From: Desulfomonilia bacterium
GTDB lineage: Bacteria; Desulfobacterota; Desulfomonilia; UBA1062
Length of the DNA stretch: 64,000 bases
Assembly (NCBI GenBank): GCA_036567785.1
Contig: DATCTV010000037.1
Location: 124,001 to 188,000 of the forward strand
Reading direction: 5' to 3'
Numbering within the stretch: the first letter of the stretch is position 1; each line of letters starts with the position of its first letter. The position numbers and the translations under genes are program-made. Below the pieces are notes generated by a model. That model did not search any database and was not told where the DNA came from. It was given only the letters and a program-made list of their open reading frames with translations. Of this stretch, positions 55,882 through 59,589 are shown piece after piece.

Positions 55882-56652
55882 ATGAGCAGATTCATCGACT
55901 TGTCTGTAACTATAGAAAGCGGGCTTCCAAGCGACCCTCCGATGATGATACCAAAGATAATGTACATAGACCATGCATTGGGGGCGGAGAGCATGAAGTC
56001 CTTTTATCCCGGACTTACTGCCGGGGATCTCCCGGGCGGGCTGGGCTGGGCTGTCGAAGTTATGGAAGTGTCCACTCACGCTGGCACGCACATGGATGCG
56101 CCGTGGCATTTTCATCCCACTCAGGACAAAGGCAAACCGGCCATGACGATTGATCAGTTCCCTCTTGAATGGGGCGTGGGAAGCGGCGTCAAGCTGGACT
56201 TCTCGGATTTCCCCGACGGCTACAACATCACGGTCGAGGATGTTAAGGCAAAGCTCGATGACATTAAATACACGCTCAAACCGGGCGATATATTCCTTGC
56301 GAAAAGCGGGGCGGCGCCATACTGGGGTACGCCGGAATATCTGGTCAAGGGCTGCGGGTTCAGCCGCGACGCGACGCTCTGGATACTGGGCCACGGTGTG
56401 CATGTGGTGGGCACCGACGGCTGGAGCTGGGACAGGCCGCTTCCTTTCCAGGCTAAGGAGTTCGTCGAAACAAAAGATGCATCAATAATCTGGGAAGGCC
56501 ATTTTGCCGGTATAGAAAAGGGCTATTTCCAGATAGAAAAGCTCGCAAATCTGGATATGCTTCCGTCAACGGGTTTCAAATTCTACTGCTTCCCGGTAAA
56601 GATCAAAGGGGCGAGCGCGGGGTGGATAAGGGCGGTGGCCGAGGTTCAGTAG
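55882..56652 (+). CDS. Cyclase family protein (kynurenine formamidase-like metal hydrolase)
   Basis: Protein of 256 residues of the putative cyclase/arylformamidase family. The metal-binding signature H-x-G-T-H-x-D-x-P-x-H is exact in STHAGTHMDAPWHFHP (near 72). Other family parts are DLSVTIESGLPS at the N-terminus and LGHGVHVVGTDGWSWDRPLPF near 172. GAAGGGAGGTAATGAT precedes the ATG. Members hydrolyse amide or lactone bonds of aromatic or other small molecules with divalent metal. Divergent from the URO-D-like gene, 117 bases apart; they may share control. Confidence 0.9.
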   Translation: MSRFIDLSVTIESGLPSDPPMMIPKIMYIDHALGAESMKSFYPGLTAGDLPGGLGWAVEVMEVSTHAGTHMDAPWHFHPTQDKGKPAMTIDQFPLEWGVGSGVKLDFSDFPDGYNITVEDVKAKLDDIKYTLKPGDIFLAKSGAAPYWGTPEYLVKGCGFSRDATLWILGHGVHVVGTDGWSWDRPLPFQAKEFVETKDASIIWEGHFAGIEKGYFQIEKLANLDMLPSTGFKFYCFPVKIKGASAGWIRAVAEVQ

Positions 56653-56653
56653 A

Positions 56654-56777
56654 GGCAGGGCGTGATAACTTCGCATCTCTGCGTCACTCCTTGTCTCAAG
56701 GTTGCGGCATACGTCTTTAGTATGCCTCACCTTTCGACGTCGTTGCTCCTTGACCTGCTTTGTTCTGACGCCCTGCC
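56654..56777. repeat. Palindromic repeat element upstream of the reverse transcriptase
   Basis: 124-base unit bounded by GGCAGGGCGT (56654-56663) and ACGCCCTGCC (56768-56777); the pairing extends to 16 bases with two mismatches. The centre is GGCATAC/GTATGCC around a seven-base loop (56706-56726). It begins 2 bases after the cyclase stop codon. The centre CATACGTC...GTATGC resembles the core of the element at 51772-51956, so both may belong to one dispersed repeat family. Confidence 0.7.
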
Positions 56778-56956
56778 GCCTAAGGTGTATTATGCATTGC
56801 ATAGAATTAATTAGCTTTGGTGTTTGTGTCAGTGCGGTATAATTATTGAATATGAAATAAATAGAGTGAATAAGGGGCAAAATGTGAGAGGTTTCGAAAT
56901 TCAAAAGTATGATTTGAAACAAGTCTTTGCTTTTTACTACATAAGGAGATGATCTC
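56778..56956 (+). promoter_or_regulatory. AT-rich leader of the reverse transcriptase with promoter and hairpin
   Basis: Contains a consensus -10 box TATAAT (56838-56843) with a weak TTGGTG/TTTGGT about 16 bases upstream, which would start transcription near 56850. A hairpin formed by GTTTCGAAAT and ATTTGAAAC (56891-56920, one bulged G) follows in the untranslated leader. AAGGAG (56943-56948) is the ribosome site for the TTG start. The leader of about 100 bases could hold a small structured RNA. Confidence 0.45.
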
Positions 56957-58540
56957 TTGAATGTGAACGATGCGGTATCACTAGCGGTAGACAGTATTCT
57001 GCGAGATGGGTGTAGTGATATAACCTCAGAATCTCTCGAATTGAAGCTGATCGCCGCGTTTAGGACAGATTTTGAGAAAGATATAAAATCCAAACTGAAT
57101 CGAGGCTCTGTGTCTGAAATGGAGTTTCGACCACTTCAATATATTCTTACTCCAAAAAATCGATATGTTTTCGATTACAGAAAAGCGGCAATCATGAGCC
57201 CCGCTTGCCTTGCCAAGTTTCTTGCGATAGTATTTCAATATGCCGAGATCGTTGAAGCGTCGCGTGTACCACTGAAGGACAATGTTGTTTTTTCTTACAG
57301 GTTCAATCCTAACAATGAAGGTGTTTTCGATCGCACCATTGGTTACTCTCAATGGAAGGAACAGACGAAAATCAAGGCGGCAGACAGTAAGTGTAAATTT
57401 ATAGTTTCTTGCGATATCGCGGCATTTTACGATAGGGTCAATATTCATCGCATAGAATCTACTTTACTAAGTATTGATGTACCAAAACATTTGGTTAAGC
57501 ATACGAATGATCTATTACTGTTTTGGTCAAAGAAAGACAGTTACGGCATTCCAGTCGGAAATGTTGCGAGTAGAATTCTGGCTGAAGTAGCATTGATTGA
57601 TATTGATCAATATTTGTTGTCTGAAGGTATAGTATTTACACGATATGTAGATGACTACAGACTATTTGCACCGAGTCTTCTCACTGCACAGGAATGGATG
57701 AACAAGTTAACAACAAGATTATTTCGTGATGGATTAATGCTTAATACAGGAAAGACTCAAATTCGTGAAGCAATACCTGGTACGAAGGAAGTAGATTCAG
57801 AAACAGAAATACTGGAAGATTCTGCAGAGACTGTTCTAAAGGCAATAACAAAGCTAACAGGTGGATACAACCGAATAGTAAGACGTTTCACAATGCCAGC
57901 GGAAGAAAAGCATAAAAATTTTAAATCTATCAGGCTCGACGAAGAGATTGCTTCACTTAGCAAACAATCGATCGTTGAGTTTGAGGGTATCCAAAAAGTT
58001 GTTATTGCATCACTTATACAACAACGCTTCGATGCACTGATAAATATTGCGAGAGTGTGTAGTAGCTACCTTTATGGTCTGGACTATTTTATTGATATGC
58101 TTGTTAAAAACTCAGAGTTCATCCCGGAAGTCCAGCGAAACGAAATAGCGGATTTATATGAAGCATTAATCAATGGTGGTGACCTCTATTCGTTTGAATG
58201 GCATTGCGCTTCTGTAGCAAAGTTGCTCAGTCATCCTCATTACTTTAGGAAAAATGCCTTAATTCAGCTTTATAAGACACCTGCTAAAGATGTTTCTACA
58301 TATGGATCAATGATTGCCCTAGAAGGATTGCAAGGTATGATCAATCGATCTGAGTTTAAAACTATACGTGAATATTTCGATAGGTCGGACGAATGGGAAA
58401 GAAGGAGGTTAATAAGTCTTTCTGATGTGTTGCCACTAGAAGAACGAAAAGCCTGGGTAAAGGTGGTGAAAGCCTCACTCTCAGATGATTTTTTAGGTAA
58501 ACAATTTTGCGAAACCATAATTCGCGAACAATCAATCTGA
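56957..58540 (+). CDS. Solitary reverse transcriptase with C-terminal helical domain (defence-RT-like)
   Basis: RNA-directed DNA polymerase of 527 residues; TTG start with AAGGAG 8 bases upstream. Palm motifs: A, VSCDIAAFYDRVN (Asp153); B, GIPVGNVASRILAEVALIDID (197-217); C, FTRYVDDYRLFA (Asp232, Asp233); D, GLMLNTGKTQI (259-269). Residues about 330-527 are helical and HEAT-like (SYLYGLDYFIDML, HYFRKNALIQLYK), not a maturase, HNH or retron-type tail. No group II intron, msr/msd or cas1 is seen. This architecture resembles the UG/Abi (DRT) antiphage RTs; the exact class is undetermined. Base composition is clearly more AT-rich than the neighbours, suggesting acquisition by transfer. Confidence 0.85.
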   Translation: MNVNDAVSLAVDSILRDGCSDITSESLELKLIAAFRTDFEKDIKSKLNRGSVSEMEFRPLQYILTPKNRYVFDYRKAAIMSPACLAKFLAIVFQYAEIVEASRVPLKDNVVFSYRFNPNNEGVFDRTIGYSQWKEQTKIKAADSKCKFIVSCDIAAFYDRVNIHRIESTLLSIDVPKHLVKHTNDLLLFWSKKDSYGIPVGNVASRILAEVALIDIDQYLLSEGIVFTRYVDDYRLFAPSLLTAQEWMNKLTTRLFRDGLMLNTGKTQIREAIPGTKEVDSETEILEDSAETVLKAITKLTGGYNRIVRRFTMPAEEKHKNFKSIRLDEEIASLSKQSIVEFEGIQKVVIASLIQQRFDALINIARVCSSYLYGLDYFIDMLVKNSEFIPEVQRNEIADLYEALINGGDLYSFEWHCASVAKLLSHPHYFRKNALIQLYKTPAKDVSTYGSMIALEGLQGMINRSEFKTIREYFDRSDEWERRRLISLSDVLPLEERKAWVKVVKASLSDDFLGKQFCETIIREQSI

Positions 58541-58618
58541 TGAACACATGTTCTCGGCAGCAAAAAACCGCTTATTCATTGCCCTGTTAATACTGCTGTT
58601 GATGTGCTGTGTTAAAAT

Positions 58619-59053
58619 ATGTCTAACATCCGCCAAATGACGATTGGGGATTATGAAGAGGTGATCGGGCTTTTGCGCGAGGCACCTGGGGTAGTTGTAC
58701 GTGATGCGGATTCTAAAGAGGCGATTACGAGATACCTTGAGCGCAATCCGGGCCTCAGTTTTGTGGCGATAGAGTCAGGCCGGATCGTGGGCTGTATCAT
58801 GTCAGGTCATGACGGCAGGCGCGGCTATCTTCAGCACCTGGCTGTTGCCGATGGATTCAGGAAACAGGGGATAGGAAAGGCCCTTGTGGAAAAGTGTCTC
58901 GAAGGACTTCAAAAAGAAGGCATACTGAAATCACACATCGATGTTCTTGTTGACAATAAAGCTGCAGCCCTGTTCTGGGAAAAAATCGGATGGAAAAGAA
59001 GGGACGATATATGCCGCTATTCCTTCATCAGGAATAGCGGTCATAATGCCTGA
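58619..59053 (+). CDS. GNAT family N-acetyltransferase
   Basis: Acetyltransferase of 144 residues. The acetyl-CoA site is LQHLAVADGFRKQGIGKALVEKCLE near 68 (Q/R-x-x-G-x-G/A motif), followed by DVLVDNKAAALFWEKIGWKRR typical of RimI/YpeA-like members. N-terminal RQMTIGDYEEVIGLLREA is the usual first strand and helix. Base composition returns to the local norm. The stop abuts the end of a convergent microprotein gene. Substrate unknown. Confidence 0.88.
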   Translation: MSNIRQMTIGDYEEVIGLLREAPGVVVRDADSKEAITRYLERNPGLSFVAIESGRIVGCIMSGHDGRRGYLQHLAVADGFRKQGIGKALVEKCLEGLQKEGILKSHIDVLVDNKAAALFWEKIGWKRRDDICRYSFIRNSGHNA

Positions 59054-59176
59054 TCAGTTTACTTTCTCGTCGAGACTGTATCGCTCGCTGGCCTGGCGGC
59101 TTGCCGCCCTTGAAATGAACCTGAACGATATTGCTGCCAGCGAAACTGCGCCTATTACTATAAAGATGATGCTCAT
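59054..59176 (-). CDS. 40-residue membrane microprotein (third gene of trio)
   Basis: Gene of 40 codons starting at ATG 59176, one base after the TGA of the AtpZ-like gene, with AAAGGGG upstream inside that gene. The product begins MSIIFIVIGAVSLAAISFRF, one membrane helix, and ends in a charged tail (SRQASERYSLDEKVN). Its N-terminus resembles that of the 58-residue protein upstream (IVIG...FRF versus IVIG...IRF). Too short for family assignment. Coupled position and ribosome site support it. Confidence 0.62.
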   Translation of the reverse strand: MSIIFIVIGAVSLAAISFRFISRAASRQASERYSLDEKVN

Positions 59177-59177
59177 T

Positions 59178-59408
59178 TCATACCCCTTTCTTTCTGCTTA
59201 ATTTTATCGAACCCCAGCTTCCTGCAATTATTCCCATCATGATGAATAAGAGCGTAAAGCCCGGGTCGAAACCTGTTACTTTATCGGCATAAAGACCAGT
59301 GAACAACCCCAGAAAGATTCCTGCCAGAATCACCAGACCCTTAAGAGCGGTCGCTGCGATTGAAGAGGAAGGTTTTTGGGGGTGTCTGCTGTCTTGCGCC
59401 ACAGCCAA
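59178..59408 (-). CDS. AtpZ/AtpI-like small membrane protein
   Basis: 76-residue protein with two membrane helices (about 20-42 and 49-68) joined by a loop YADKVTGFDPGF, the pattern of AtpZ/AtpI-type F0F1 ATPase accessory proteins (normally G-x-x-x-D plus a second helix GxxxG). ATP synthase genes are not adjacent; instead it is sandwiched between two microprotein genes (gaps of 4 and 1 bases). It may assist assembly or ion transport of a rotary ATPase encoded elsewhere, or serve a different complex. Confidence 0.72.
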   Translation of the reverse strand: MAVAQDSRHPQKPSSSIAATALKGLVILAGIFLGLFTGLYADKVTGFDPGFTLLFIMMGIIAGSWGSIKLSRKKGV

Positions 59409-59412
59409 TCCT

Positions 59413-59589
59413 TTAGAATAAAGCCGCGATCAGCTGGCGTGCCGGTGCAGTGTTCACACCAACAAGCATCACTATCAGTATATAGACTGCAGCTGCTTCG
59501 ACCGGGGTCAGTCCGAGGACTTTATACGTAAACCTGATTCCGATTCCCGTCAGGAACAAGCAACCTATTACTATCCAAAGCATCAACAT
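59413..59589 (-). CDS. 58-residue membrane microprotein (first gene of trio)
   Basis: Gene of 58 codons starting at ATG 59589 with a perfect AACGGAGGTAAACGCC ribosome site. Two hydrophobic helices: MLMLWIVIGCLFLTGIGIRF and VEAAAVYILIVMLVGV, joined by YKVLGLTP, ending in ARQLIAALF. It lies 4 bases before the AtpZ-like gene, so it heads a three-gene microprotein operon. No family recognised. Its strong ribosome site and membrane-like composition make it convincing despite its size. Confidence 0.72.
   Translation of the reverse strand: MLMLWIVIGCLFLTGIGIRFTYKVLGLTPVEAAAVYILIVMLVGVNTAPARQLIAALF

Follow-up and report, generated by a model that had tools for sequence, protein, structure and literature searches.

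The window, by which we mean the whole 64,000-nucleotide stretch of Desulfomonilia bacterium DNA that was analyzed, carries an intact reverse transcriptase (RT) gene with its catalytic residues present, and the encoded protein belongs to the known Drt8 family of RT proteins rather than to a new class. Within that family it is of the single-gene kind, outside the two-gene DRT8 system in which the RT is accompanied by an RTasPDDEXK gene; DRT8 is a type that we take to be the same as UG7, an equation on which none of our conclusions depends. Considering all of the evidence together, we find it fairly likely that the gene is a horizontally acquired, single-gene UG/Abi defense RT of class-1-like type, one that would act as an oligomer through untemplated DNA synthesis and abortive infection.

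The features of the gene are collected in Table 1. Its TTG start lines up with the ATG starts of the homologs L001 and L012. The original prediction described an intact RT palm, with Asp153 and YVDD at residues 230 to 233, and no intron, Cas1, or maturase domain. Both motifs are present, and D153, D232, and D233 are invariant across all homologs that cover these positions. RVT_1 (E=3.8e-13) is the sole Pfam domain above the cutoff, with no maturase, Cas1, or other domain found in the scan, and an Rfam search over positions 56000 to 59500 returned no match. Between the RT gene and the adjoining GNAT acetyltransferase gene, a short open reading frame (ORF) at 58548 to 58640 encodes a 30-aa hydrophobic peptide (MFSAAKNRLFIALLILLLMCCVKICLTSAK), which may be a chance ORF or a remnant.

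Table 1. Positions of the RT gene, its domains and motifs, and its upstream elements in the window
Feature	Position	Strand	Basis
RT gene for 527 aa, from TTG start through stop codon	56957..58540	+	ORF, PADLOC Drt8 E=8.5e-115, homologs
Shine-Dalgarno-like AAGGAG, 8 nt upstream of start codon	56943..56948	+	sequence
RT-like domain (fingers and palm), residues 1-271	56957..57769	+	RVT_1, structure model
Catalytic Asp153 codon (motif A)	57413..57415	+	sequence, homolog alignment
YVDD active-site motif, residues 230-233	57644..57655	+	sequence, homolog alignment
Palm-to-solenoid linker, residues 299-319, including Tyr304	57851..57913	+	alignment, model
Predicted all-helical HEAT/alphaRep-like C-terminal domain, residues 290-522	57824..58522	+	predicted structure
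AT-rich leader, 32% GC, 178 nt	56779..56956	+	sequence; no conserved RNA detected

Of 76 PADLOC models compared with the window RT, Drt8 (PDLC03783) is the best, with a match of 383 bits (E=8.5e-115) that extends over residues 4 to 520 of the protein and positions 4 to 488 of the 493-position profile. The runner-up, RT_UG21, scores 134 bits (1.7e-39), and Drt4 (about 84 bits) and Drt6 (about 60 bits) are far under Drt8. The NCBIfam hits include no Drt8 model; a Drt4 hit is far under its cutoff, as are the group II model (47.9 bits versus a cutoff of 300) and retron_St85 (32.2 bits versus 235). Drt8 is also the best model for the homologs scanned in genomes, plasmids, and viral contigs, except L035, for which it is UG20. 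Our palm-domain tree took in group II, RT-Cas1, DGR-like, retron, and other UG RTs. In this tree, the window RT falls within a Drt8 clade of 24 RTs (97/96) that is nested in a UG clade (99/97) and is separate from the group II, RT-Cas1, DGR-like, and retron RTs, with the UG20 RT of L035 outside it. The original prediction, which had proposed such a phylogeny as a check, held that the class could not be named from sequence alone and might be new; the full-length profile match and the 24-member clade overturn that view.

The gene that distinguishes the two-gene system was found at eight loci (L031, L032, L033, L050, L051, L052, L054, and L059), where a protein of ~245 aa is encoded directly after the RT. 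Six of these eight partner proteins were scanned, and those six match RTasPDDEXK. A profile built from the partners detects the gene in all eight loci and nowhere else among the loci examined, and RTasPDDEXK (PDLC03797) has zero matches in the whole window genome and in 11 other genomes or records. The partner is thus absent from most of the sampled Drt8-model RTs (present beside 8 of 24), with the limit that the contigs of L018 and L019 end soon after the RT and could hide one. In a full-length tree, the eight partner-bearing RTs constitute one side of a 100/100 branch, and the partner trait is explained by one change; the window RT, outside this clade, groups with L001, L014, and L012 (100/99), with L019 and L049 further out (100/100). 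Because the partner clade excludes the window lineage and the host genome lacks the partner, we file the window RT as a single-gene member of the family. At one partner-bearing locus (L051, 4746 to 12801), the RT and its PD-(D/E)XK partner lie between integrase-like and primase-like genes; by eye, the latter resembles the P4 satellite primase, and the genes upstream look phage-tail-like. DUF2779 genes, each the sole copy in its genome or record, occur near the RTs of L001 (3990 to 5855) and L049 (10333 to 11907), and such a protein is possibly an alternative partner near lineage RTs; as the partner of the window lineage RTs it was considered and set aside, only two of the six lineage members having it.

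The same data bear on the reading that the window RT is what is left of a decayed two-gene DRT8 system, its PD-(D/E)XK nuclease having been lost and the RT no longer defending the cell. Such a history would account for a host genome with no partner in a family in which eight members have one directly downstream, but the partner-bearing RTs form a separate clade, the window ORF is intact, and the lineage is strongly conserved, including its catalytic residues. Moreover, three close relatives are likewise partnerless and have intact RT genes. We regard decay as quite unlikely, and the preferred reading remains that of a single-gene defense RT.

In 23 further genomes from the host family, no full-length homolog of the window RT was found. 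Drt8 model matches occur in 7 of 395 genomes of the phylum, the window's own included, and the homologs inside the phylum are distant, at about 20 to 32% identity; no homologs were found in phage records. The closest relatives are instead L014, on an IMG/VR contig (69% identity), L001, in a KSB1 metagenome-assembled genome (65%), and L012/L013, on Caballeronia megaplasmids (54.5%). Given this absence from host-family genomes and these close relatives in KSB1, Caballeronia megaplasmids, and a viral contig, horizontal transfer is the simplest reading; the gene was probably acquired horizontally and is probably mobile. The distribution is sporadic and not that of a vertically inherited core gene, and the RT lies outside the intron and retron clades; the original prediction had named either as grounds for giving it up. 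In L014 (1 to 8892), a contig from a viral collection, the RT homolog is at one end and an integrase and a protein with a Zot domain are also encoded, which suggests that this RT is carried by or beside an inovirus-like element. The KSB1 genome of L001 has a second Drt8-model RT, truncated, at a contig end (L036, 6439 to 6918).

Composition sets the gene apart from the rest of the window. Among 38 window ORFs of at least 200 aa, it has both the lowest GC (38.8%; mean 49.1%, SD 3.3 points) and the lowest GC3 (33.1%; mean 55.4%, SD 6.6 points), as expected from the earlier description of an RT more AT-rich than its neighbors. That description also had the RT standing alone between metabolic genes, and it is indeed flanked by a cyclase-family gene and the GNAT gene, with zero PADLOC defense matches on its ten nearest neighbors. 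An empty-site comparison with relatives gave no result, because the GNAT gene is not conserved in the host family. The palindromic element noted before the RT exists (56654 to 56777); however, it does not serve as evidence of mobility, being an imperfect repeat of ~120 bp with 27 matches (69 to 100% identity, own copy included) in the 4-Mb assembly. Because these copies are dispersed through the assembly, the element is uninformative about the RT gene specifically, and we rejected it as part of an RT element.

The original prediction also called for a survey of the neighbors of homologs, and the outcome is divided: the window locus has no defense neighbors, whereas distant homologs adjoin several defense systems. 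Distant family members lie near Gabija (L016 and L029), Lamassu LmuB (L033), and type I restriction-modification genes (L034 and L056), and two further loci are near a DrmD-like helicase (L055) and AbiEi/AbiEii (L059); these loci are a list of examples, not an enrichment figure. On an Aminobacter plasmid, a second RT gene lies directly 3' of the Drt8-family RT (L030, 7833 to 9677), and the palm tree places this second RT with the retrons.

We modeled the window RT with AlphaFold2 from a 13-sequence alignment (pLDDT 82, pTM 0.81). Residues 290 to 522 are predicted to be all-helical, and the best Foldseek matches of the model are DRT4, UG15, AbiK, Abi-P2, and DRT6. With VIA-align 2, DRT6 aligns to the model over both domains (Z 20.0, rmsd 5.5, 422 residues), as do AbiA (Z 18.4, 392 residues), AbiK (Z 17.5, 431 residues), and DRT4 (Z 17.4, 404 residues). 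The C-terminal 240 residues, folded separately (pLDDT 83), resemble HEAT, armadillo (ARM), and designed alphaRep solenoids at Z 10 to 13, and Foldseek gave no match at E <0.001 for this domain alone; the Z values indicate a common helical-repeat arrangement only and no specific relative. In its predicted fold, then, the window RT has the UG/Abi class 1 (AbiK-like) architecture, in which a helical, HEAT-like (alphaRep) domain comes after the RT-like domain. The likeness to AbiA and AbiK that had been proposed on the basis of HEAT-type helices in the last ~200 residues is supported for the overall architecture, because both domains, including the helical-repeat C-terminal domain, align in the model. 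The core of the original prediction stands: the window RT is solitary, is of the UG/Abi type, has a HEAT-like C-terminal domain in its predicted fold, and is probably encoded by a mobile antiphage gene.

On the RT domain alone (~250 residues), the top VIA-align 2 ranking goes to DGR and group II RTs. This would suit a non-defense retroelement or host-function RT related to group II introns, retrons, DGRs, or RT-Cas1, which we nevertheless consider highly improbable: maturase and Cas1 domains are missing, the group II and retron models score far under their cutoffs, the palm tree places the RT outside those clades, the distribution is sporadic, and the family co-occurs with defense genes.

Class 1 UG/Abi RTs are defined by the alphaRep domain and make untemplated DNA, and those of class 2 copy a noncoding RNA (ncRNA) (PMC13174585). 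The window RT would belong with the latter type functionally if an unrecognized ncRNA near it templated a defined cDNA. The AT-rich leader before the gene is a place where such an RNA could lie, DRT2, DRT3, and DRT9 use adjoining ncRNAs (PMC13213688), and few close relatives are available for comparison of flanks. Against this, the 500-nt upstream flanks of three relatives have no similarity above shuffles, nor do the downstream flanks of four relatives except for one weak pair, so that neither these sequences nor Rfam yielded a conserved upstream or downstream RNA; the predicted architecture is also class-1-like. An RNA-templated system is unlikely in our judgment, and we return to untemplated synthesis as the preferred reading.

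Protein priming offers a further comparison. In AbiK and Abi-P2, the priming tyrosine (Tyr44 and Tyr61, respectively) sits in the loop that joins fingers helices 2 and 3 (PMC9508834), and neither residue has an evident counterpart in that loop of the window RT, in which the first tyrosine is at residue 62. Within the window lineage, Tyr70 and Tyr304 are largely conserved, and we list Tyr62, Tyr70, and the linker Tyr304 as candidates only for priming residues. The linker has low pLDDT yet is conserved in the close lineage (LTGGYNRI...); a role for it in priming is speculation.

We infer untemplated DNA synthesis with abortive infection, our best guess, from the architecture and from the lack of a detectable conserved flanking RNA. 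AbiK makes protein-primed random single-stranded DNA (ssDNA) and forms hexamers (PMC9508834), and DRT4 has been described as a one-gene polymerase that needs no template and primes from a tyrosine, with its ssDNA stabilized by a phage protein (PMC13314766). By analogy, the window RT may oligomerize like AbiK and DRT6, both hexamers, and polymerize DNA without an RNA template, probably primed by its own tyrosine. A phage factor would trigger this synthesis or stabilize its product, and toxic or sequestering ssDNA would then halt phage production by abortive infection. In this way, the window RT probably protects the cell by DNA synthesis upon phage attack. We give a low but appreciable chance to the window lineage (the window RT, L001, L012, and L014, with L019 and L049) being a functionally separate single-gene type, with no nuclease partner or ncRNA, an unrecognized priming site, for example in the palm-to-solenoid linker, and a DNA product unlike those of known DRTs.

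DRT8 is listed among the DRT types that reportedly confer resistance to phages, and its mechanism is unestablished (PMC13213688, PMC13314766); this, together with a lineage that lacks the nuclease partner, makes the window RT moderately noteworthy. With the partner confined to one clade and missing from most of the Drt8-model RTs sampled, a comparison of the window RT with partner-bearing members would bear directly on defense by the RT alone and on the contribution of the nuclease.

Among known proteins, the window RT is most similar to L001, L012/L013, and L014, with which it shares 54 to 69% identity, one clade, and the lack of a DRT8-type PD-(D/E)XK partner; their neighbors differ, being DUF2779, tyrosine recombinases, and integrase and Zot, respectively. 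To the DRT8 RT family as a whole it is linked by the full-length profile match, the clade, a similar length, and the RT and helical C-terminal domains, but identity outside its close clade is mostly 20 to 31%, and its separate lineage lacks the RTasPDDEXK gene that is found after the RT at eight of 24 loci. DRT4 (UG15) and DRT6 are likewise single RT proteins with a helical C-terminal domain and a full-length structural match, although identity in the structural alignments is 13%. AbiK, AbiA, and Abi-P2, at 14 to 16% identity, have in common with the window RT model an RT-like domain and a helical solenoid, with 382 to 431 residues aligned.
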